A DNA stretch of 64,000 nucleotides, from positions 1,054,001 through 1,118,000 of the forward strand of contig NZ_CP042906.1 in assembly GCF_008728855.1 (NCBI RefSeq). The letters are read 5' to 3'. Every line of letters begins with the position of its first letter. The stretch's first letter is position 1. Shown piece by piece: positions 7,934 to 59,161 of the stretch. This DNA is from Hypericibacter terrae (GTDB lineage: Bacteria > Pseudomonadota > Alphaproteobacteria > Dongiales > Dongiaceae). Position numbers and translations under genes: made by a program. The notes under the pieces were generated by a model. That model was not told the origin of the DNA and searched no databases. It worked only from the letters and a program-made list of their open reading frames with translations.

Positions 7934-8449
7934 TTATTTCGGGACCGCCACCGTGAAGTAGGGCGCCGTGGGCGTCTGGCCGGGGCCGAAGGGTCCCGGC
8001 ACCTTATGCGAGAAGGCCGGCAGGCTCTTGATGAAGGCCGCCAGCGCCTTGGCGTCCGCATCGGTGAGCGCGCCATAGGAGTGCCAGGGCATGACCGGTG
8101 CCAGCTCGCGGCCATCGGGCCGCACACCGGTGCGAACGGCCGCGACGATCTCCGCCGCGCTCCAATTGCCGAGACCGGTTTCCTTGTCCGAGGTCAGATT
8201 GGGCGGATAGAAAATCCCCATTCCCGGGATCTCGAAGCCGATATCCGAGCCGCCCAGCGCATGGGCCATGTCGGGCTGACCGGTCATCGCGCCCGGCGTA
8301 TGGCAGCCGCCGCAATCCATGATGGTCGCCAGATAGCGGCCGCGTTCGTTCGTGCCTTCGGCCAGGGCCGGTGCGGCGCCGAAGCCGGCCAGGGTCACGA
8401 TCAGCGCGCCGAAGACGGCGCCACGAGCCAGAGACGGTGTCTTGGTCAT
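7934..8449 (-). CDS. Periplasmic mono-haem cytochrome c
   Basis: A 171-residue class I cytochrome c. Residues 1-30 are a Sec signal peptide ending PALA. The haem site CGGCH is at 46-50 and the likely axial methionine is Met120 in PVMPWHSY. The protein resembles the small cytochrome domains that serve periplasmic dehydrogenases or copper-linked oxidases. It lies just downstream of a methionine-rich DUF305 protein on the same strand (231 bp apart), so a shared redox or copper role is possible but unproven. It has its own terminator. Confidence 0.9.
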   Translation of the reverse strand: MTKTPSLARGAVFGALIVTLAGFGAAPALAEGTNERGRYLATIMDCGGCHTPGAMTGQPDMAHALGGSDIGFEIPGMGIFYPPNLTSDKETGLGNWSAAEIVAAVRTGVRPDGRELAPVMPWHSYGALTDADAKALAAFIKSLPAFSHKVPGPFGPGQTPTAPYFTVAVPK

Positions 8450-8680: not shown

Positions 8681-9400
8681 CTATTGCGACGCCGGATGTT
8701 TGGCAAGCCAGTCCTTCATCATGTCCAGCTCCTTCTGCTGGGCCGACACGATGTCCTGGGCAAGCTGCTTGATCTGCGGATCCTTGCCGTATTGCAGCAC
8801 GGCCTGCGCCATCGCCACGGCGCCCTCATGATGGGCGATCATGTGAGCGACGAAATCGCGATCGGCGTCTCCGCTATAGGGCTGGTTCATCGCCTGATGC
8901 ATCTGCATCTCGGCTTGCCACAACGCCTGGGATCCGTGCGCGCCATCGCCGTTCATCATGCCGCCATTCATCATCCCGCCATTCATCATCCCGGGCCCCG
9001 CGTTGTAACTCTGCCTGCCCATCATGCCGCCATACATCATGCCGGGGCCCATGCCGTAGCCGGGTCCGTTCATCATGCCGGGACCGCTGCCATAGGCGCA
9101 GCCCATCATGTTGCAGCCCATCATGCCCGGTCCCATCATCATTCCCGGTCCCCAGCCTTGACGCATCATCGGCATCCCGCCGCCGCTCGTCATCTGCTGC
9201 ATCATGCCGAACATCTGCTGGCGAAGGCCCTGCATCTGCTGCTGCAGGTCCTGAATCTGCTGCTGGGTCTGGTCCTGTTCCGCCGCCGCGGCTCCCGAGG
9301 GCGCCGTCACGGCCAGGCCGAGAACCAAAATGACGACCGCGCCGCAGAGCCTGTGGGTTAGTCGCCGGACGGCGCCTGAATTGATTGGATAATCGGTCAT
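8681..9400 (-). CDS. Methionine-rich DUF305 family periplasmic protein, probable copper binding
   Basis: A 239-residue exported protein. ATG 9400 (MTDYPINSGAV) has AAGGAG just upstream. Order: signal peptide (about 1-40), Gln-rich coiled coil (QQQIQDLQQQMQGLRQQ), then a long Met/Gly region (about residues 63-150) with many MM pairs and tandem GGMMN units, then the DUF305 domain with DFVAHMIAHHEGAVAMAQ and a C-terminal KELDMMKDWL. DUF305 proteins (for example CopM) bind copper via Met/His, and MM-rich stretches are typical of periplasmic Cu(I) binding. The Met-rich insert is unusually large. Copper function is inferred. Confidence 0.85.
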   Translation of the reverse strand: MTDYPINSGAVRRLTHRLCGAVVILVLGLAVTAPSGAAAAEQDQTQQQIQDLQQQMQGLRQQMFGMMQQMTSGGGMPMMRQGWGPGMMMGPGMMGCNMMGCAYGSGPGMMNGPGYGMGPGMMYGGMMGRQSYNAGPGMMNGGMMNGGMMNGDGAHGSQALWQAEMQMHQAMNQPYSGDADRDFVAHMIAHHEGAVAMAQAVLQYGKDPQIKQLAQDIVSAQQKELDMMKDWLAKHPASQ

Positions 9401-48594: not shown

Positions 48595-50382
48595 TCAGTC
48601 GGGGAGCCCCGCCTTTCGCAGGCCATCGGCGAACGTCGCGAGATCCTTCGGTCGGCGGATGGGGAGCCAATCCGCAAGATTGGAGAGGCGCAATGTGGGA
48701 TCAAGCTGGCGCAAATGATCCATGGCCCGCCGGGCCTTGTCTTGATGGCCCGAAAGCGCATGGCTCGCTGCGATGATGCCGACGGCCATCAGGAAGCTGG
48801 GCATATGCCTCAATGCCTCCTCCGCCAATGAAGACGCGGCATCAAAGCGTCCGGCAAACAGATGTGCCATCGCCATTCCCGCCCGCATTCGATACCTCTC
48901 GGGGTCGAGGGGGCTCAAACGCATCGCGCGCTCGAAGTACTCTGCGGCGGCGTCCGGTTCGCCGTTCCAGATTCTCAGGAACCCGCCGAGGAACCAAGCA
49001 GACGCGAGATTTGGATTCAGCAGATTCGCCCTGTCGGTCAGCGCGATGCCGGCATCGAGGTCGTCGGCAAAGTGGCCGAGCGCGTGGCCGCCTCGCGTCA
49101 GCGCGACGGCATCGTCTTCGCCCAGCTCGACGGCCCGACGGGCCAATCGGGTTCCCTCGGCGATCTCCTGCAATCGATCGGTCATCCAGCCGTTGACCTT
49201 GCGCCAGAAATGGCACCACGCGGCCATCGCGTGCGCCGACGCGAAATCCGGATCGATCTGGATCGCCTGATAGAATTGGTTCAGTGCCTCTTCGGTCGCA
49301 TCCCTGGTTCCCCGATTCAAGTTCGCCCGTCCACGCAGGTAGTAGTCGTAGGCGTCGAGGCTCTCGGTCGGTTTGTGCCGCGCACGCTCGATCTCGGCTT
49401 GCTCCAGCTTCGGTGCGATTTCACCCACGACGCGCGCCGTGACCTGGTCCTGAAGGTCGAAGATGTCCTCCAATCCGCCGTCAAAGCGCTCCGCCCAGAG
49501 ATGGAGCCCGGTTGGCGCATCGATGAGCTGCGCCGTTATACGAATGCGGTTCGCCGCCTTGCGCACACTCCCTTCGAGGACATAGCGCACGCCCAAGTCA
49601 CGGCTGACTTGCTTCACATCGACGGCCCGGCCCTTGTAGACAAACGACGAATTGCGAGCGATCACGAAGAGCTGACGGAATCGCGACAATGCCGTGATGA
49701 TGTCTTCGACCGTCCCATCGGCAAAGTACTCCTGCTCGGGATCGCCGCTCATATTCTGAAACGGCAGGACCGCAATCGAGGGCTTGTCGGGCAAAGACAA
49801 TCCGGGCGCGGCCGCCGTCGCAGTTCCGGCCGACGCAGTCGCCTTTGCCGCAGCCGCACCTCCGAACTGAAGCGAATAAATATGCATAGGCTCCGCGATG
49901 TTCTTGAGCCTGGTTTCGCCAAGATCGCTGATTGCGAGATCGAGCCGCGATCTCACCTGCCGATAGGCATCCTCCGAAAGACATATGGCGCCAGGTTGAG
50001 CAACGCCCTCCAAGCGCGCCGCGATATTGACGCCGTCACCCATCAGGTCGCCATCGCTCTCCTCGACAACGTCACCAAGATGAATGCCGATACGAAATTC
50101 AATGCGCCGCTCCGGCGGCAGCCCGGCGTTGCGCTCGATCATCGAGTTCTGAATCTCAATGCCGCAGCGAACGGCTTCGACGACACTCCGGAATTCCACA
50201 ATGGCGCCGTCGCCGGTTCGCTTCACGACGCGTCCCTTGTGGACGGAGATCGTCGGATCGATCAGGTCGCTTCGAAGCGCGCGCAGCCTTGCCAGGGTGC
50301 GGTCCTCGTCCACCCCGGTCAGCCGACTGAACCCGACGACATCCGCCGCAAGCACCGCAACAAGCTTCCTCGACTCAGTCAT
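48595..50382 (-). CDS. Class III adenylate/guanylate cyclase with TPR repeats
   Basis: A 595-residue protein starting at ATG 50382 (MTESRKLVAVLAADVVGF). The cyclase homology domain (about residues 5-180) has a metal-binding Asp in LAADVVGFSRL, HKGRVVKRTGDGAIVEF and MGDGVNIAARLEGVAQPG. A linker leads to the TolB-like segment (PDKPSIAVLPFQNMSGDPEQEYFADGTVEDI), then TPR-type helices to the end. This cyclase-TolB-TPR architecture is abundant in rhizobia. Ends near the unknown exported protein, transcribed the opposite way. Confidence 0.92.
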   Translation of the reverse strand: MTESRKLVAVLAADVVGFSRLTGVDEDRTLARLRALRSDLIDPTISVHKGRVVKRTGDGAIVEFRSVVEAVRCGIEIQNSMIERNAGLPPERRIEFRIGIHLGDVVEESDGDLMGDGVNIAARLEGVAQPGAICLSEDAYRQVRSRLDLAISDLGETRLKNIAEPMHIYSLQFGGAAAAKATASAGTATAAAPGLSLPDKPSIAVLPFQNMSGDPEQEYFADGTVEDIITALSRFRQLFVIARNSSFVYKGRAVDVKQVSRDLGVRYVLEGSVRKAANRIRITAQLIDAPTGLHLWAERFDGGLEDIFDLQDQVTARVVGEIAPKLEQAEIERARHKPTESLDAYDYYLRGRANLNRGTRDATEEALNQFYQAIQIDPDFASAHAMAAWCHFWRKVNGWMTDRLQEIAEGTRLARRAVELGEDDAVALTRGGHALGHFADDLDAGIALTDRANLLNPNLASAWFLGGFLRIWNGEPDAAAEYFERAMRLSPLDPERYRMRAGMAMAHLFAGRFDAASSLAEEALRHMPSFLMAVGIIAASHALSGHQDKARRAMDHLRQLDPTLRLSNLADWLPIRRPKDLATFADGLRKAGLPD

Positions 50383-50572
50383 GCGAGATGACCAAGCTGC
50401 TCTCGGATCGATTGTTTGTTGCGGCCTGCGCAGCTCTGGCGCGCGCTGCCCAAATCGATCATCGTCTTGCTCCTTCAGGCGTGGGTCGTGAGATTCTCGA
50501 TCGCCTGGACTCACCGTCTCAAAGGGCCAATCAGATGCCGCACATCCGCCGCTTTTCTACGGGGGTGACGCT

Positions 50573-51787
50573 CTATAGGTCCGTGACGCGTTCCGGATCG
50601 GCCGACGCGAGCGCTGCCGCGCGTTCGGCCCGAGGTGGGTAGATCCACACGGTATTGATCTCTTTCTTGGTGGCTTTCGCCTTGGCGCCAATCATCTCCA
50701 CTTTTCGGTCCCAGCCGCGGGTGAAGACCGCGCCGGCTTCGCCCAGGTCCAGGCAGGTGACATAGACCTTCTGGTGGTAGGGGCTCGTCGGGACGCCGAG
50801 CAGTTCGGCGGCCGCGTTGTTGCCGGCAAAGGCCCCCATTCGCGTCGCGTGCTGACACGACATCAGGGCATGCCTACCCTGATCGTCACATGGGACCTTG
50901 GCCGCGTCGCCCGTCGCATAAACGCCGTCGACATCGAGGACGCGCAGCGTGCGATCGACCAGGAGCCGGCCGAAGTTGTCGCGCTCTCCCGGAACCTGCG
51001 CGGTAAGAGGTGCCGCGCGCATCCCCGCCGCCCAGATCACGGTCATGCTCTCGATGCGCGCGCCGTCGGACAGCGTCACACCTGCGTCGTCCAATGCGGC
51101 CACCCCGACGCCGAGCCGGCTTTCGACCCCGCATTCGCGCAGCGCCTTCTCGATGACGGGGCGGGGTTCGGCGCCCATGTCGGGAGCAATGGCCGGACCA
51201 CGCTCGACAATGATGACCCGAATCGTCGCATCCGGCCCCAAAATCCTACGCAGACGCGCCGGCAATTCCGTGGCGACCTCGATACCGGTGAAACCGCCGC
51301 CGGCCACAACCACCGTATCACGCGCCTTGGATGCAGCCCGGCCGGCTAGGCTGTGGAGGTGGCGATCGAGCTTGATCGCCTCGTCGAGCTGATCGACGCT
51401 GAATCCGTGCTCCGCCAGGCCCGGAATGGGCGGACGGAACAGGCGGCTGCCGGTGGCGAGGACCAATCGATCGTACGTCAATCTGTGATGGCGGTCGTCC
51501 GCCTTGCTCACGATTTCCACAGATCGGCCACGCGTATCGATGGTTTCGACGGTACCCTGGACGTAGCGAACGTCGATTGCCTTGAGGACATCGTCGAGCG
51601 GTGCGGTCAGCGTCTCCGGATTGGGTTCATAGAGGCGAGGGCGGACCACGAGTGTCGGTTGCGGAGACACCAGGACGATCTCGAGCTCTTCGATCGAAGC
51701 ACGGGCCGCGTCGCGCAGGCGGGCCGCGGAAAGCGTGGCGTACATTCCGGCAAATCCGGCGCCGATGATGACAAGTCTTTGTGACAT
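50573..51787 (-). CDS. NDH-2-like FAD-dependent NAD(P)H oxidoreductase
   Basis: A 404-residue flavoprotein starting at ATG 51787 (MSQRLVIIGAGFAGMYATLS), GGAGAT upstream. Two Rossmann loops: VIIGAGFAGM for FAD and VVVAGGGFTGIEVA for NAD(P)H, and a terminal VDGVYATGDAAKVP FAD site. This matches type II NADH dehydrogenases (Ndh), but the C-terminal membrane-anchoring region is short, so it may be a soluble relative (such as a ferredoxin or rubredoxin reductase). A 21-bp box at 51936-51956 lies 149 bp upstream. Confidence 0.88.
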   Translation of the reverse strand: MSQRLVIIGAGFAGMYATLSAARLRDAARASIEELEIVLVSPQPTLVVRPRLYEPNPETLTAPLDDVLKAIDVRYVQGTVETIDTRGRSVEIVSKADDRHHRLTYDRLVLATGSRLFRPPIPGLAEHGFSVDQLDEAIKLDRHLHSLAGRAASKARDTVVVAGGGFTGIEVATELPARLRRILGPDATIRVIIVERGPAIAPDMGAEPRPVIEKALRECGVESRLGVGVAALDDAGVTLSDGARIESMTVIWAAGMRAAPLTAQVPGERDNFGRLLVDRTLRVLDVDGVYATGDAAKVPCDDQGRHALMSCQHATRMGAFAGNNAAAELLGVPTSPYHQKVYVTCLDLGEAGAVFTRGWDRKVEMIGAKAKATKKEINTVWIYPPRAERAAALASADPERVTDL

Positions 51788-52228
51788 ATTCAGATCTCCG
51801 TTACCTGCTCTCGGAAATGCCTCTGCCCGATCCCGCGCCGGGCGGTCGGCACGGGGACGAGCCGTGGCTGTCGGCCTGCCCGGAACGGGTGGGATAATGG
51901 CGTAAGCGACCACGGTGCCGATACTCTACGGCGGGATAGGTTCCTATCGCCGATCGCTAGGTGAGTCTAAGCCCCGCGCGATCCTTCGACGCCTCGCGAT
52001 CCTGCGTCCCTTGTGGCCGAGGCCGCCGCCAGGCAGGCGATCGGCGGGCCGGTCACGCAGATGTCGCTCCTCGTGATCGGCGGGTCGATGGAGGGTCTCT
52101 CGCTTCCGGAACGAGATGCCGGCTTGGTTGCCGCCATCGAGCTCATCACCCTCACCGTCACCCTGGGGGCCGGCCATGACGGTCAATTGGCGCCTCGGCC
52201 AGCGCCGCTCCCCTTCAACCGGGCGGTC
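51788..52228. other. Intergenic stretch with a candidate regulatory box
   Basis: About 440 bp between the NDH-2-like gene and the end of the last response-regulator gene. It holds the NDH-2 promoter region and the box at 51936-51956. Remaining small frames (for example minus-strand 51967-52161) show no family or signal and were not called. Confidence 0.5.
51936..51956 (-). promoter_or_regulatory. Shared 21-bp box upstream of the NDH-2-like gene
   Basis: Read on the minus strand: CGATCGGCGATAG, then GA, then ACCTAT. It agrees at 19 of 21 positions with the box at 56611-56631. The right part is within a perfect dyad GATAGG-TT-CCTATC (51935-51948), as expected for a dimeric regulator. Probable binding site of one of the FixJ-type regulators encoded next door. 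Confidence 0.6.
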
Positions 52229-52921
52229 CTAGGCATCCACGCCCTCGCGTACCTCGGCGGGCAGCGCCTCCCAAACGCGAACCAGCTCGCTGATGCAAGT
52301 CAGCTGCATCTTGCGCATGAGGTTGCCGCGGTGGAGCTTGACGGTGATCTCGCTGATGCCGAGGTCGAAAGCGATCTGCTTGTTCACCCGGCCAAGCGCG
52401 ACTTCCCGCAGCACCTGGCGCTCGCGCAGAGTGAGCAGCGTGAACTTGCTCAGGTGGTCCTTCACGACCCGCGATCTCGCCCGCTGCGCGATATCGCGTT
52501 CAATGCCTGTCGCGATCGCATCGAGCAGTGCCTGGTCGCGCACCGGCTTAGTAAGGAAGTCGACGGCGCCTGCCTTCATCGCCTGCACCGACATCTGGAT
52601 GTCGCCATGGGCTGTGAGGAAGACGATCGGCTTGGCGTTTCCGCTTTTCGCCAGTCGGCGCTGGAGATCCAGGCCGCTCACGCCTGGCATCCGTACATCG
52701 GCCACGAGGCAGCCTGGACGATCTGGAAGCTCGGCCGCGAGCAAGTCGCGCGTCGAGCTGAAGCCGATCACATCGAGGCCGACAGAACTCATGAGCTCGT
52801 GCAGCGCCTCGCGGAGGGCGTCGTCGTCGTCCACGAGGATGACCAGCGGGCGATCCGCTTCGACCGAACTGCCCGCGGCCCGAGATTGGTTGAGCACCCT
52901 GCTCTGATCGCTCACGCTCAT
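52229..52921 (-). CDS. FixJ-type response regulator (receiver plus LuxR HTH)
   Basis: A 230-residue regulator. Receiver with Asp75 in CLVADVRMPGVSG as phosphorylation site and the Lys of FLTKPV; C-terminal LuxR/FixJ HTH (LTLRERQVLREVALGRVNKQIAFDLGISEITVKLHRGNLMRKM). ATG 52921 overlaps the preceding stop by ATGA. Last gene of a kinase operon with three regulators. N-terminus has a 25-residue Ser-rich extension. Confidence 0.94.
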   Translation of the reverse strand: MSVSDQSRVLNQSRAAGSSVEADRPLVILVDDDDALREALHELMSSVGLDVIGFSSTRDLLAAELPDRPGCLVADVRMPGVSGLDLQRRLAKSGNAKPIVFLTAHGDIQMSVQAMKAGAVDFLTKPVRDQALLDAIATGIERDIAQRARSRVVKDHLSKFTLLTLRERQVLREVALGRVNKQIAFDLGISEITVKLHRGNLMRKMQLTCISELVRVWEALPAEVREGVDA

Positions 52922-53295
52922 GGTCGGTCCTCCTTTCCAGTCAGAGCGGCGCCGATCGCAGCGAGCAACGCTCGCCCGTCGAAAGGCTTACGGAAAAACC
53001 AGTCGTGCTTTGCCTGCGGCGGCTCGGCGATCTCGTGGCGACCGGTGATCATGATTACCGGCAGGCCCGGGCGCCTCTGCCTCATCACGCGCTGCAACTC
53101 GAAGCCGTCCACGCCCGGCATGCCGATGTCCGTGATCAGACAATCGATCTTTGGAACGGCGTCGCTGTCGAGCAGGGCCTGGGCCGACGCGAATGTCCGG
53201 ACGACGTGCCCCGCTGACTCAAGGAGATCCTCGAGCGATTCGAGCAAGCGCTTGTCATCGTCAACGATCGCCACCACGGACTTCAGTTTGAGCAT
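52918..53295 (-). CDS. Single-domain response regulator receiver
   Basis: A 125-residue stand-alone receiver starting at ATG 53295 (MLKLKSVVAIVDDDKRL); a TTG two codons upstream (53301) is an alternative. Phospho-acceptor is Asp56 in CLITDIGMPGVDG; Thr/Lys switch residues in VIMITGRHE and FFRKPFD. With no output domain it probably works as a phosphate sink or protein-binding switch between the kinase and the two DNA-binding regulators. Confidence 0.92.
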   Translation of the reverse strand: MLKLKSVVAIVDDDKRLLESLEDLLESAGHVVRTFASAQALLDSDAVPKIDCLITDIGMPGVDGFELQRVMRQRRPGLPVIMITGRHEIAEPPQAKHDWFFRKPFDGRALLAAIGAALTGKEDRP

Positions 53296-53297
53296 TT

Positions 53298-53939
53298 TCA
53301 AGAGCTTCCGGTACGTCTGGAATGAGTGATGGGGATCTGCAACCTTTCGGCAATTCTCACCAAGTCGGCAAGCGACGCCGCCGCCATTTTCTGCATGACG
53401 TTCCTTCTATGAATTTGGAGCGTGACCTCGCTGATCCCGAGTTCAGCGGCGGCTTGCTTGTTGAGAAGACCGCTCACCACGAGCGGCAACACATCACGTT
53501 CGCGCGGTGTCAGGTCGAGATAGCGCTGCCTCAATACACCGAGTTCGGCTCGCTCCAATCTTCTTTCCCGGTCCTGGGCGATTGCCGCTCGGATCGCGGC
53601 CATGAGATCCGAATCACTGAACGGCTTGGTCAGGAAATCGACGGCGCCGCGCTTGATCGCACGTACCGAGGATGGGATGTCGCCATGCCCGGTTATGAAG
53701 ACGATCGGCGGATGATCGCCCTCCGCGATCTGTCTCTGCAGATCGAGTCCGTTGATGTCCGGCAGCTCAACATCGAGAATCAGGCACGCAGGGAGATCGG
53801 GCTTCGCATAGGCGACATAGTCCGCGGCCGCGGCGAACGTCTTGGCCCGCCATCCCAAGGACTCCAGCAGTTCGCCGATCGCCTCGCGCACGCTGGCATC
53901 GTCATCCACGACGAAGACGATTTCCTCGCGCTGGCTCAT
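53298..53939 (-). CDS. FixJ-type response regulator
   Basis: A 213-residue receiver-HTH regulator. Asp56 in CLILDVELPDINGLD accepts phosphate; switch residues are in VFITGHGDIPSS and FLTKPFSD; the HTH is LTPRERDVLPLVVSGLLNKQAAAELGISEVTLQIHRRNVMQKM. It overlaps the kinase stop by ATGA, so kinase and this regulator are the likely cognate pair. Highly similar in layout to the third gene, suggesting duplication. Confidence 0.94.
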   Translation of the reverse strand: MSQREEIVFVVDDDASVREAIGELLESLGWRAKTFAAAADYVAYAKPDLPACLILDVELPDINGLDLQRQIAEGDHPPIVFITGHGDIPSSVRAIKRGAVDFLTKPFSDSDLMAAIRAAIAQDRERRLERAELGVLRQRYLDLTPRERDVLPLVVSGLLNKQAAAELGISEVTLQIHRRNVMQKMAAASLADLVRIAERLQIPITHSRRTGSS

Positions 53940-56386
53940 GACGCCTCGCTCGGCGCCAAAGGAAGCCGGAAGGCGACGGTCGCTCCGCGTGTCTCGTTGT
54001 TGGTCGTCCAGAGACGGCCCCCGTGCGATTCGATGATCGAACGGCAGATGGCGAGTCCCATGCCCATTCCGTTCTGCTTGGTCGTGAAGAACGGTTCGAA
54101 GACGCGGTTGGGATCCCGAAAACCAGTGCCGGTATCGCGAACCTCGACGCGGATTGCGTCGCGACCATCACGGCAGGAACATATCTGGAGCACACGTGGA
54201 TCGTCCTCCACGCTGTCCATCGCCTCGATGCCGTTCCGGATCAGGTTCACGAACACCTGCTGCACCTGGACGCGATCGAGCGCAACCGACGGCAGGTCCT
54301 GCTCGAGATCCCTCTGGATACGAATGTCCTTCGCCGCGATCTCGTCAGCCATCAGGCGGCAGACTTCACCGATGAGGCGGTTGACGTCATCGGGCGACCT
54401 GGCGTGCGATGTGTGACTGAATAGGGCGCGGATGCGGCCGACGACGTCCGCTGCCGAGTTGGCGTCGCGGGTGATACGCTCCGCTGTGATCTTCGCGCGC
54501 TCGATATTGGGAGGCTGTGCGGACAGCCAACGGTGGCATGCGTGGGAGTTGGCGACGATCGCGGCCAGCGGCTGGTTCACTTCGTGGGCGATCGAGGCGG
54601 ACAGCTCGGCGAGGCTTGCTGCCTGAGTCGCCTGTGCGAGCCGGTCGGAAGCGCGCCGCAGCGCCTCTTCGGCGTGCACCCGATCGTCTATGTCGTGACA
54701 GAGGCCGAACCACTGGACAATGCGCCCGCTCTCGTCCCGCAGGGGGTCCGCGCGGCCCGACATCCAGCGATACACGCCATCCGCGCGCCGGAGGCGATAA
54801 TTCATGGAGAAGGTCTCGCCTGTGCGAAGACAGCGTCGGAGAACCTGCCACACCGCCTCCGCTTCGTCCGGGTGGAAGATGGTGTCAAACACCGTTTCCA
54901 GTTGTCTCTTGTTCCCCGAGTCCAGTCCGAGAAAGTCCGCCATGCGCTTGTTGACGAGTGTGAGTTCTCCCTCCGGGGTCACACGCCAGAGATGGCTCGG
55001 AACCATATCCACGAGCAGCGAGAGCTCGCGCTCCCGGTTGCGCAGCGCTTCTTCGGCGTGCAGCCGATCGTCAATGTCGATGCTGACGCCATACCACTGG
55101 ACGATGCGTCCGCCGTGGTCTCGCATCGGCTCGGCGCTGCCCTCCATCCAGCGATACATGCCGTCCGCACGACGCAGGCGGTACTTCATCGAGAAGCTCT
55201 CGCCGGTGACGACGCAGCGATTGAGCGCGTCGCCTAAGCTGGTCGCATCGTCGGGATGGGCGACGGTCCCTATGATGGCCGCCAGCCGGCTTTTGTCGGG
55301 CCTGTCCGCATCCGCGATATCCAGGCCAAAAAAATCGGTCAGGCGCTTGTTGAAGAAGTTCGGTTCGCCCTCCGGAGTCAGCCGCCAGAGGTAGACCGGG
55401 ACCATGTTGACGAACTGCGAGAGCTGCTGCTCGCTATGCTGGAGCGCCTCGACGAGTTCTCGCAGCGAGCGCTCACTTTGGCGCAATGTGAGCACTGCCA
55501 GGTGGTGCTGCCGGGATATGGCGGCCACGATGAGCGCCGAAAATGCCGAGATCGCCAGAAAGAGCTGCAGCATAATCTGCTTATGCTTCTGGGACTCGGG
55601 ATCGCCGGCAAATTGGCCGGCGCCGGTTACTGTGAAAATCGCCGTGATCAAAGCGAGGAGGATCAAGGTCACGGCGGCGCCTTTGAACTCAAAGCGCACT
55701 GCGGCCCAAAGAAGAGGCGGCATGATGATGTAAGCGAAGGGCAGGTAGCCGCTCATGGAAAGGGCGGCGACACCAAGAAAGATCAGCCCCAGGACGCAAG
55801 CTTCCATCCATCGCGCGGTCGAGAACTGGGCTTTGCCGCGCCAGTTCTGAAACACGACCAGCGCCAGCGGCGCTACGATCAAGACCCCGGTGGCGTCTCC
55901 GATCCACCATAGCGGCCAAGCCGTCACGAAGGACTGCGATTGGATGCCGAACCACGCAAGCGTCGCACTTCCCACTGTCGCGCTTACGATTGGCGCAATT
56001 CCGGCGGCCAGTACGACGAATGCGAGAACCTCCTGCAAGGTTTCCAGCCGAACCGGGCGCTTGCAAGTCCGGTTCACGAGCCATGCCCCGGCCACTGCTT
56101 CAAGAGCGTTGCCGACATAGATCAGGAAGGCCGCCGGCAGCGGGCTGTGGAACCACAGGAAATTGCTGAACAGTTCCGACAGACAGCCCCCCAGCACCCA
56201 CCACGGCCAGCTTGACCTGGAGGCGAGGACAAGCGTGGCGATGAAAAGCCCGCTCGGGGGCCAAATGGAAATGCCTGTTCCCGGCACGATGGCGAGCAGC
56301 TGGGCGAATCCGCAGCCCAAGACATAGGCCGCAATGAAAAGCCCAAGATGCAAGAGTGGGGGGCGGTGCGCCCAGATGCGCATCAT
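53936..56386 (-). CDS. Membrane histidine kinase: MASE1-PAS-PAS-HisKA-HATPase
   Basis: An 816-residue sensor kinase. ATG 56386 (MMRIWAHRPPLLHLGL) is chosen since AGGAG precedes it; a GTG at 56473 in frame lacks a site. A MASE1 membrane domain (about residues 10-285) is followed by two very similar PAS-PAC units (about 320-435 and 445-560; both contain MVP-WRLTPEGE and YRLRRADG-YRWM). HisKA has His about 600 in SIAHEVNQPLAAIVANSHA, and the ATPase has DTGTGFRDPNRVFEPFFTTK and GMGMGLAI. MASE1 kinases sense unknown membrane-linked cues. Confidence 0.94.
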   Translation of the reverse strand: MMRIWAHRPPLLHLGLFIAAYVLGCGFAQLLAIVPGTGISIWPPSGLFIATLVLASRSSWPWWVLGGCLSELFSNFLWFHSPLPAAFLIYVGNALEAVAGAWLVNRTCKRPVRLETLQEVLAFVVLAAGIAPIVSATVGSATLAWFGIQSQSFVTAWPLWWIGDATGVLIVAPLALVVFQNWRGKAQFSTARWMEACVLGLIFLGVAALSMSGYLPFAYIIMPPLLWAAVRFEFKGAAVTLILLALITAIFTVTGAGQFAGDPESQKHKQIMLQLFLAISAFSALIVAAISRQHHLAVLTLRQSERSLRELVEALQHSEQQLSQFVNMVPVYLWRLTPEGEPNFFNKRLTDFFGLDIADADRPDKSRLAAIIGTVAHPDDATSLGDALNRCVVTGESFSMKYRLRRADGMYRWMEGSAEPMRDHGGRIVQWYGVSIDIDDRLHAEEALRNRERELSLLVDMVPSHLWRVTPEGELTLVNKRMADFLGLDSGNKRQLETVFDTIFHPDEAEAVWQVLRRCLRTGETFSMNYRLRRADGVYRWMSGRADPLRDESGRIVQWFGLCHDIDDRVHAEEALRRASDRLAQATQAASLAELSASIAHEVNQPLAAIVANSHACHRWLSAQPPNIERAKITAERITRDANSAADVVGRIRALFSHTSHARSPDDVNRLIGEVCRLMADEIAAKDIRIQRDLEQDLPSVALDRVQVQQVFVNLIRNGIEAMDSVEDDPRVLQICSCRDGRDAIRVEVRDTGTGFRDPNRVFEPFFTTKQNGMGMGLAICRSIIESHGGRLWTTNNETRGATVAFRLPLAPSEAS

Positions 56387-56510
56387 CGGCTGCTCCTGCC
56401 AGGCAAGGAAAGCATAGGGACCGCGGACGGTTAGTCTATCGCTGGTCGTCAATTTCTGGGCTGGCGAAATCACCGGCTCACCCTACTGCCGCCACGCCCG
56501 AGCCGCACCT

Positions 56511-56524
56511 CATGGAAATCCATG
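56511..56524. promoter_or_regulatory. Small dyad upstream of the kinase gene
   Basis: CATGGA-AA-TCCATG, a 6-bp-arm inverted repeat 125 bp upstream of the kinase start. Could be an operator; short enough to arise by chance. Confidence 0.3.
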
Positions 56525-56610
56525 TATAGCATGCCGGTGCGACCGTCGCGGCGCGCCCATTCCCTCTACGTCAGATTGAATTGCTCACGCCAACGCACAG
56601 GGAGATCTGA

Positions 56611-56631
56611 CGATCGGCGATAGCGACCTAT
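56611..56631 (+). promoter_or_regulatory. Shared 21-bp box upstream of the metallo-hydrolase gene
   Basis: CGATCGGCGATAG, then CG, then ACCTAT; 19 of 21 positions match the box before the NDH-2-like gene, and both are oriented the same way toward the gene they precede. It is 213 bp upstream of the hydrolase start and 225 bp from the kinase start. Confidence 0.6.
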
Positions 56632-56844
56632 ACGCAGGGAGGATATCGATCGTGTTGCTGAATCTGCACCCTTGGTATCGACCAGCGCACTTATCCCAGA
56701 GTGCAGGTCTATCTGCTTCACAGGTGGGCAGTGCCTAGCAGGCTGCACAGTATCGGGGTCTCGGTACGTGCGCGATCATGGTTTCGCCACTAGCGGAGCA
56801 ACAGAAGATACCGCCGTGGGTAAGGCGGTCAGCAGGAGACAAAC

Positions 56845-57774
56845 ATGAGCTTGCTCAACACCTCCATGACCTTGGACAACACCTCGCACCACGGTAGACC
56901 GGCCCTCGACGAGTCGGTTCCGTCGCGCTACGCGATACGGATCGGCGAGATTGACGTGCTGGTGATCAGCGACGGGGTGATGTTGCTGCCAGCCGCAACG
57001 TTGGCCACAAACGCCAAGCCGGCCGACCTCGCGGCCTGGCTGGACGGCATGTTCCTGCCGCCAGTATTCGACTGGCCGGTAAACGTGGGCGTGGTGCGTA
57101 GCGGCGACCGGACCGTACTCATCGACGCTGGGCTAGGGGGAGTGTACAACCACCCGCGGGCCGGACGGTTGGGTCTGCGACTGGAGGCTGCCGGCATCGA
57201 TCCCGAATCCCTGACCGACGTGGTGCTCACCCACATGCACATGGACCATGTGGGCGGGCTGCTCGCCGACGGGTTCAGCGGCCGGCTGCGTTCGGACCTG
57301 CGGGTCCACGTGGCGGCCGCCGAGGTCGAGTTCTGGGCGGCGGGCGCAGATTTGTCCCGCACCTCCATGCCGCCGGGGGTGCAGGACGCGCTTCGGTCGG
57401 TCGCCTCGCGGTTCTTGGACGAGTACCGCAACCGGCTGCAGCTGTTCGAGGCGGAGTACGAGGTGGCGCCAGGGGTGGTCGTCTCTCGCACCGGCGGCCA
57501 CACCCCCGGGCACAGCGTGGTCCGCGTGGCGTCTGGCGGCGACCGGCTCATGTTCTGCGGCGACGCCGTGTTCCCCCCCGGGTGCGAGTGCCCCGAGTGG
57601 CATAACGGCTTCGACACCGATCCCGAGGAGACGGCCCGCGTCCGCGTCGGTCTTTTGCGGGAGCTTGCGGCGACCCGCCAGCCGCTGGTGCCCTGTCACG
57701 TGTCGTTCCCGTACGGCCGCGTGGCGGCCGCCGGCGACGTCTTTCGTTGGGTGCCGGCCTACTGGGATTACTGA
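56845..57774 (+). CDS. Metallo-beta-lactamase-fold hydrolase (lactonase-like)
   Basis: A 309-residue protein, start ATG 56845 after AGGAG. The zinc motif HMHMDH (H-x-H-x-D-H) follows VVLTHMHMDHVGGLL; a further His in TGGHTPGHS and the Asp in FCGDAVFPPG complete the two-metal site. The overall pattern resembles quorum-signal lactonases of the AttM/AiiA class and other small MBL hydrolases. Divergent from the kinase operon and preceded by the shared 21-bp box, so it is a likely target of that system. Confidence 0.88.
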   Translation: MSLLNTSMTLDNTSHHGRPALDESVPSRYAIRIGEIDVLVISDGVMLLPAATLATNAKPADLAAWLDGMFLPPVFDWPVNVGVVRSGDRTVLIDAGLGGVYNHPRAGRLGLRLEAAGIDPESLTDVVLTHMHMDHVGGLLADGFSGRLRSDLRVHVAAAEVEFWAAGADLSRTSMPPGVQDALRSVASRFLDEYRNRLQLFEAEYEVAPGVVVSRTGGHTPGHSVVRVASGGDRLMFCGDAVFPPGCECPEWHNGFDTDPEETARVRVGLLRELAATRQPLVPCHVSFPYGRVAAAGDVFRWVPAYWDY

Positions 57775-58008
57775 CCGCTTGTTGGGTTAGGGCTGAACCA
57801 GACGACCGCATGCGTTTGAACAACTGGTCGATCGCTGCCTCGTGCGACAGCCGCGCCGCTGCGGGCCGGGCTGGAGTGTCTGGTGGACTTCCATCGGCTC
57901 AACTCCAGCGAGGTCAGGGTCAGCGTCGCGGCCGTTAACGTCAGTGTCCGGTGTAGCGCCGGCGAAGCTGGCGGCCGCGAGGAACCTCCCGGCGCTGCGT
58001 GAACTCGT

Positions 58009-58536
58009 CTACTCCGCGGCGTTCGCCTTTGCTTCCGTCTTCCGCGCCGGCAGCTTCCACTCCGGACGGATGAAGTGGCAGGTATAGCCGTAGGGGATGC
58101 GCTCCAGGTAATCCTGGTGCTCGGGTTCGGCCTCCCAGAACGGCCCGGCGGGGACGACCTCGGTGACGACCTTTCCCGGCCACAGGCCCGACGCGTCGAC
58201 ATCGGCCATGGTGTCTTCGGCGACCGCCTTCTGCTCGGGGCTGGTGTAGAAGATTGCCGAGCGGTAGCCCAAGCCCCGGTCGTTGCCCTGGCGGTTCAAG
58301 GTCGTCGGGTCGTGGATCTGGAAGAAGAACTCCAGCAGCCGGCGATAGCTGATCCGCGCCGGATCGAACAGGATCTCGATGGCCTCGGCGTGGCTGCCGT
58401 GGTTGCGATAGGTGGCATTGGGCACATCGCCGCCGGTATAGCCGACGCGGGTCGAGATCACGCCGTCATAGCGGCGAATCAGATCCTGCATGCCCCAGAA
58501 GCAGCCGCCGGCCAGGACCGCGCGTTCCTGCGTCAT
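58009..58536 (-). CDS. msrA: Peptide-methionine (S)-S-oxide reductase
   Basis: A 175-residue MsrA. ATG 58536 overlaps the msrB stop by ATGA. The catalytic motif GGCFWGMQD holds the nucleophilic Cys; further marks are [28 protein letters not shown] and the substrate loop. It repairs the S-diastereomer of oxidised methionine. Second gene of an msrB-msrA pair. Confidence 0.96.
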
Positions 58537-58982
58537 CGCACATCCTCCACCTGGTCGAGATAGGCCCCGTAGCCCTCGGCCTCCATCCGGTCGCGAGGGA
58601 TGAATTTGAGCGAAGCCGAATTGATGCAATAGCGCAAGCCCCCGCGATCCCGCGGCCCGTCGGGGAAGACATGGCCGAGATGGCTGTCGCCGAATTTCGA
58701 ACGGACCTCCGTGCGGGTCATGCCATGGGATCTGTCCGTCAGCTCCTTCACATGGGCAGGCTCGATCGGCTTGGTGAAGCTGGGCCAGCCGCAGCCCGAT
58801 TCGAACTTGTCCGCCGAGGCGAAGAGGGGCTCGCCGGAGACAATATCCACATAGATTCCAGGTTCTTTATTGTTCAGAAGCGGCCCGGTTCCGGGGCGCT
58901 CGGTGCCGCTTTCCTGGGTGACGCGGTATTGCTCCGCGGTCAAGGCGGCGACGGCTTCGGCAGTCTTGCGATATTCCGGCAT
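58533..58982 (-). CDS. msrB: Peptide-methionine (R)-S-oxide reductase
   Basis: A 149-residue MsrB. ATG 58982 ([15 protein letters not shown]) with GGAG before it. The catalytic cysteine is in [22 protein letters not shown] and [13 protein letters not shown] are family hallmarks. The two CxxC zinc-binding pairs of some MsrB proteins are absent. It reduces the R-diastereomer and is translationally coupled to msrA. A broken copy of the same gene type is at 4118-4237. Confidence 0.96.
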
Positions 58983-59161
58983 ACGGTGGCTCCATCCAGC
59001 GAGCGGTTCTCGGTTCACGTGGATATGGCCAGGACCCGGCCGCGATGCAAGCCGGCCGGCTGCGCATCCGAGCGGCGACTGGGCACTTTCCGGCCATGAC
59101 GTCGATCACTTCCTTGTCATCCCGACGAGCGGAATGGTGAGGCCAAGCGCCGGCTGACCGC

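Follow-up and report, generated by a model that had tools for sequence, protein, structure and literature searches.

A conserved promoter element beside a StyR-like two-component operon of Hypericibacter terrae is probably a binding site of the operon's own regulator

The window analysed here, a stretch of 64,000 nucleotides from the Hypericibacter terrae genome, contains a signalling operon flanked by two enzyme genes. Domain searches bore out the gene content of the original prediction, which had described a kinase, two FixJ-type regulators and a lone receiver between an oxidoreductase and a metallo-hydrolase:

50573–51787, minus strand: NDH-2-like FAD/NAD(P) oxidoreductase (P0001), proposed target; Pyr_redox_2 domain, NDH-2 structures among the best PDB matches
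52229–52921, minus strand: RRa (P0002), receiver plus GerE/LuxR-type HTH, proposed binder; domain search and PDB match
52918–53301, minus strand: single-domain receiver (P0003), TTG start; domain search
53298–53939, minus strand: RRb (P0004), second FixJ-type regulator; domain search
53936–56386, minus strand: MASE1-PAS-PAS-HisKA-HATPase sensor kinase (P0005); domain search
56845–57774, plus strand: metallo-beta-lactamase-fold hydrolase (P0006), proposed target; domain, NCBIfam and PDB matches

The four signalling genes are joined by 4-base overlaps, as in a translationally coupled operon. A kinase and a receiver-HTH regulator lie together, with a conserved element at the neighbouring genes, as in a NarL/FixJ-family two-component operon. 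The best PDB match of RRa was StyR (182.7 bits; FixJ scored 133.9), and RRa shares with StyR/TodT-like regulators the receiver and GerE/LuxR-type HTH of the NarL/FixJ type. FixJ was the best NCBIfam family of both RRa and RRb, at scores of 191.7 and 190.5 that lie below the equivalog cut-off of 255, and the kinase scored 242.5 against FixL, far below the cut-off of 850. The kinase differs from StyS/TodS in its MASE1-PAS-PAS architecture with a single transmitter, and the target genes differ as well. For the metallo-hydrolase, the best PDB match was 5hif, a reconstructed lactonase ancestor (125.5 bits), and the best NCBIfam match was to AidB-type lactonases, at 129.2 bits against an equivalog cut-off of 360; the protein resembles the methyl parathion hydrolase/dihydrocoumarin lactonase group. 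Adjoining it are two ORFs at 58009–59018 (minus strand) that we take to encode the methionine sulfoxide reductases MsrA and MsrB, and the product of the large ORF at 48595–50514 (minus strand) presumably combines an adenylate cyclase with TPR repeats.

A near-identical 21-bp box had been predicted before each of the two flanking genes. Both boxes were found as predicted in position and strand, identical at 19 of 21 positions and each upstream of its gene:

51936–51956, minus strand: 21-bp box on the NDH-2 side, CGATCGGCGATAGGAACCTAT
56611–56631, plus strand: 21-bp box on the metallo-hydrolase side, CGATCGGCGATAGCGACCTAT

They were the only two matches in the window at up to three mismatches, and none of 100 dinucleotide shuffles reached two (mean 0.03). 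Searching the whole genome (5,894,118 bases) and relatives, we found the core GGCGATAGNNACCTAT (14 fixed bases) exactly twice, both times at the module, and the box kept in two related genomes, G008 and G014. At up to two mismatches the core had 40 matches genome-wide against 20 for the pattern read backwards, and the looser matches are therefore largely noise. Two further features of the original prediction fared less well. A perfect dyad, GATAGG-TT-CCTATC, is present in one copy but is not kept in the other six promoters aligned below. The TTATCCCA said to follow each box does not form a pair, as the cited copies lie at differing distances from the boxes; the window has three copies of it where shuffles give 0.45, with the copy at 51890–51897 overlapping the candidate −10 hexamer and the copy at 56691–56698 lying within a second predicted dyad (56689–56708). 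Neither this perfect dyad nor the shared TTATCCCA is a conserved feature.

The module is sparsely distributed among relatives. Kinase matches at E ≤ 1e-80 occurred in 4 of 96 genomes including its own, one of them, in G011, with just 39% identity. For RRa, 7 of 17 family genomes had matches at E ≤ 1e-40, which were ortholog-like only in G008 (80%) and G014 (69%). At the limits used, the congener G001 yielded no match to the kinase, the NDH-2-like gene or the metallo-hydrolase, and its best RRa match was 49% identical. G008 retains RRb, the receiver, RRa, the kinase and NDH-2; G014 retains RRa, a receiver, a PAS kinase and NDH-2, with a metallo-hydrolase and an Rrf2 gene nearby and no RRb ortholog. 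The window's box pattern, at up to four mismatches, matched twice at each of these two loci, a count that one shuffle out of 200 reached for G008 and none out of 200 for G014. The elements precede NDH-2 and an NmrA-type gene in G008, and an SDR gene, an NmrA-type gene and NDH-2 in G014, the last of these found by eye. Altogether the element precedes seven genes in 3 of the 17 family genomes (G000, G008 and G014), all of which carry an RRa ortholog, and homologous elements are present in two other genera. G014 also contains, at L037 (G014:C26), a multi-PAS kinase in a 1,711-aa open frame beside more FixJ-type regulators.

The seven promoters align without gaps as nnCACCTAGCGnTTGGCGATnnnAACCTATnCGCAGGnAnAGTATCGGC, with 18 of 49 columns invariant. 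This alignment revealed that the boxes are the core of a conserved element of about 44 bp, with a second conserved block downstream at fixed spacing:

51919–51962, minus strand: 44-bp promoter element of the NDH-2-like gene; seven-promoter alignment, conservation profile, profile match of 46.3 bits at 51918–51964
51894–51899, minus strand: candidate −10 hexamer CATTAT in the second conserved block, at fixed spacing; position counted by hand
56605–56648, plus strand: 44-bp promoter element of the metallo-hydrolase gene; alignment, conservation profile, profile match of 42.4 bits at 56604–56649

Only two regions are conserved: −21 to +22 relative to ACCTAT, and a block spanning +40 to +49, whose information sum of 6.7 exceeds the 99th percentile (4.06) and the maximum (5.64) of 2,000 null values; blocks at −40 (4.1) and +50 (4.6) also slightly exceed that percentile. 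The two window promoters are identical at 31 of 44 positions within the element, whereas their flanks agree only at chance level (11 of 49 and 17 of 67), so the pair did not arise by recent duplication. A profile of the seven promoters, with 150 first-look candidates scored per genome, gave exactly seven matches in the 17 genomes (42.4–47.2 bits), which match by construction; the next best scored 17.6, and no further copy at a comparable score was found in G000, G008, G014 or the other 14 family genomes. A relaxed pattern was discarded, since it gave numerous one-mismatch matches in each of the 17 genomes, mostly noise. The start codons used lie 81–219 bases downstream of the element. The −10-like hexamer of the metallo-hydrolase promoter is poor, and a sigma-70 consensus scan of 51780–52100 gave no match (0.1 expected).

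To place the element more widely, we used one scan of a genome collection with the RRa alignment, which yielded 80 loci. Forty-four loci served as ortholog loci (the window, L036, L041–L081 and L088), extending up to 10 kb to either side and in several cases cut by contig ends. In the 80 loci the strict family motif TYGGCGATNNNNRCCTAT was tried and set aside: at up to two mismatches it had 56 matches against 15–33 for six control patterns, and it was exact solely in L041. These results indicate that the GGCGAT part is family-specific, and with the 44-bp profile none of the other-lineage loci searched scored above 12.4 bits. CCTAGCG..TYGGCGAT, the upstream stretch of the element, occurs in this bacterial family only and probably offers RRa or a partner a second, weaker contact.

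The right third of the box, ACCTAT, forms one half of a dyad, 16 bp long, that also lies close to RRa orthologs of other Alphaproteobacteria. Upstream regions of the neighbouring genes share ACCTAT-N8-ATAGGT, best written CTATNC-N4-GNATAG. An unguided EM motif search, with 7 of 93 upstream regions dropped as redundant, returned G+C-rich words first and the dyad among lower-scoring solutions. At up to one mismatch, the 44 ortholog loci contained 36 sites at spacer 4 (six exact) against 5–18 at nine other spacers. The corresponding counts were 9 against 1–9 in ten plasmid loci, where spacer 9 also gave 9, and 14 against 3–8 in 38 loci around RRa paralogs of about 50–60% identity. Permuted half-sites at spacer 4 gave means of 14.3, 4.9 and 9.7 in the ortholog, plasmid and paralog loci, and their maxima (59, 20 and 63) lie above the real counts; base composition therefore has an influence, and counting by itself is no proof of the dyad. 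The 20-bp form, at up to two mismatches and spacer 8, occurred 23 times in the ortholog loci; because its permuted halves reach 95 and the paralog loci gave 15, we relied on tests of spacer, position and rank. In nine annotated plasmid loci, which had no part in deriving the pattern, 8 of 8 spacer-4 sites were intergenic (one falls in a small annotated hypothetical gene left off the mask, and counting that gene gives 7), against 8 of 32 at other spacers, with 18.6% of the sequence being intergenic. The nearest genes downstream of these sites encode a metallo-hydrolase (4), a PAS kinase (3) and an AraC protein (1).

We then ranked sites with a cross-lineage matrix built from 40 sites, all of them outside the family. 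Within the window it placed the NDH-2 box first and the metallo-hydrolase box 30th:

51922–51941, no strand: 20-bp StyR-layout dyad window, proposed site of phosphorylated RRa, rank 1 of 63,981
51924–51939: 16-bp dyad core, CTATCC-CGCC-GTAGAG on the minus strand, one mismatch to CTATNC-N4-GNATAG
56626–56645, no strand: weak dyad in the metallo-hydrolase element, rank 30 of 63,981
56689–56708, no strand: second predicted dyad, containing TTATCCCA, rank 2 of 63,981, three mismatches to ACCTAT-N8-ATAGGT

At the G008 locus (19,981 positions) the NmrA site ranked first and the NDH-2 site fifth; at the G014 locus the metallo-hydrolase, NDH-2, SDR and NmrA sites ranked first, second, fourth and fifth, and the third-ranked site (L036:9697) lies between the RRa and receiver/kinase genes. 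Seven of eight aligned family sites ranked fifth or better in their locus, against a mean of 0.05 and a maximum of 4 for 500 column-permuted matrices, in a test that was not wholly blind because the dyad form was chosen with the family sites in view. Matrices from nine plasmid sites or 14 paralog sites alone gave similar ranks. Six loci with metallo-hydrolase or NDH-2 homologs remote from the operon (L184–L186 and L188–L190) had no dyad at up to two mismatches, but neither did L187, the window's own metallo-hydrolase locus, so this control does not separate the two kinds of locus. RRa paralog loci in the window's genome reached best scores of 7.1–10.0, with no strong dyad. Computation thus shows the element and its association with genomes that carry RRa, as well as the dyad and its promoter positions. 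We regard the element as genuine and conserved, a control element of a two-component module of the StyR-like NarL/FixJ kind.

Which protein reads the dyad is suggested by the company it keeps. At up to one mismatch, sites occurred in 10 of 10 Rrf2-class loci, which are without RRb (mean at other spacers 1.9), in 15 of 29 RRb-class loci (mean 4.9) and in 1 of 4 loci with neither; L068 and L069 are near-identical among the loci counted, and RRa is in all of them by selection. Since G014 has the element but no RRb ortholog and all ten Rrf2-class loci have the dyad, the pairing favours RRa rather than both FixJ-type proteins. The original pairing of regulators with the box therefore stands in part: the box is a regulatory element tied to the module, and its likely reader is RRa instead of both proteins. 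StyR-like regulators are reported to use the operator ATAAACN4GTTTAT, read through Lys175, Val176 and His179 (PMC5874301). The module's dyad shares this 6-4-6 layout (16 bp), but its half-site is CTATNC, not ATAAAC, and the contact residues proposed for StyR are only partly kept in RRa, with K195 retained and L196 and G199 replacing Val176 and His179. Phosphorylated StyR is described as activating from its main site STY2 at about −40 (PMC2442086); the centre of the module's dyad would lie at about −45 if the hand-counted candidate −10 is right.

The boxes belong to a longer control element, probably the binding place of the operon's own regulator, through which the neighbouring enzyme genes would be controlled. 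We propose that the MASE1-PAS-PAS kinase would phosphorylate the operon's regulators, and that phosphorylated RRa, a StyR-like member of the NarL/FixJ family, would bind CTATNC-N4-GNATAG as a dimer and recruit RNA polymerase at the NDH-2-like and metallo-hydrolase promoters. Phosphate may be shared among RRa, RRb and the lone receiver, and the same dyad before the kinase gene in relatives suggests autoregulation. We put the probability that StyR-like phospho-RRa binds the dyad in the 44-bp element and activates both promoters at roughly 70%. The operator and target assignment is a well-supported prediction from sequence; RRa as the binder, RRa as an activator and the signal sensed are all three what we infer.

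The element might instead be bound by another regulator (RRb, an Rrf2-family protein or one encoded elsewhere), with the two-component operon merely co-inherited. The higher share of dyads in Rrf2-class than in RRb-class loci fits such a protein, as do the 14 spacer-4 sites at the 38 paralog loci. An Rrf2 protein, however, leaves the RRb-class sites unexplained, and RRb has no ortholog in G014, where the element persists. RRa is the sole DNA-binding regulator common to the loci, partly because they were selected by it, and the layout matches that reported for StyR/TodT-like regulators (PMC5874301). We consider binding by another regulator unlikely.

Action at the RNA level, as a leader, riboswitch or attenuator, would be conceivable in that the element lies 81–219 bases before the start codons and might be part of the transcript if transcription began upstream of it. 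No Rfam family reached its threshold in 50500–57900, though, and the element is followed, at a fixed distance, by the candidate −10 block, which makes this reading very improbable. Least credible of all is a chance likeness or a recently duplicated promoter segment: the genome does hold only two copies, but no shuffle yielded two, the flanks of both copies are identical only at random level, and homologous elements occur in two other genera.

Certain kinds of neighbour recur at the 44 ortholog loci. At 40% identity or more, these were, with the number of loci in brackets, NmrA-type (28), alpha/beta hydrolase (21), metallo-hydrolase (20), cupin (15), Rrf2 (10), HlyD (9), NDH-2 (8) and SDR (7) genes. 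Many, though not all, annotated plasmid records have a similar neighbour set, and an RRa-like match at E ≤ 1e-40 was found in 406 plasmid records, only some of which will be orthologs. A reading of the module as self-contained and box-sized is not supported, as its element is about 44 bp long and the dyad recurs near RRa orthologs and distant paralogs across Alphaproteobacteria. We found no name for the module or its half-site in the literature searched, in keeping with the original view that it matches no named system, but its kind, a StyR-like NarL/FixJ two-component system, is known. The lactonase and NDH likenesses, with the recurring reductases, cupins and hydrolases, suggest a chemical-stress or aromatic/lactone response. 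Tentatively, and with somewhat less than even confidence, we suggest a widespread, apparently unnamed alphaproteobacterial module in which a PAS kinase that varies between loci is combined with a single-domain receiver and one or two FixJ-type regulators. RRa would read a StyR-layout operator with a new half-site and control the recurring neighbours (lactonase-like metallo-hydrolase, NmrA-type reductase, cupin, alpha/beta hydrolase and NDH-2) as such a response, while RRb and the additional receiver would make up a phosphorelay branch. If the proposed role of RRa is right, the results would provide an operator sequence and target list for a two-component module of rhizobia and other Alphaproteobacteria that is often plasmid-borne, and would illustrate a half-site change within the StyR-type layout.

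Several loci showed further features. Another conserved block, resembling TCGACCCAATCGACC, is present in several lineages about 40–70 bases before the metallo-hydrolase start, in L046, L055, L061, L062, L063, L068, L079 and L036. Ensifer canadensis pT173c (L201) has a second arrangement, comprising a MASE1 kinase, the flavohemoprotein gene hmpA, an Rrf2 regulator and a metallo-hydrolase. At a paralogous regulator locus in G007 (L039) there are strong dyads, CACTATACCGAGGTATATCG at 8031–8050 and CTCTAAACTTTGGTTTAGGA at 8779–8798, the latter resembling the StyR half-site, and the L039 sequence CTAAAC-TTTG-GTTTAG, between two regulator homologues, is near the StyR half-site.
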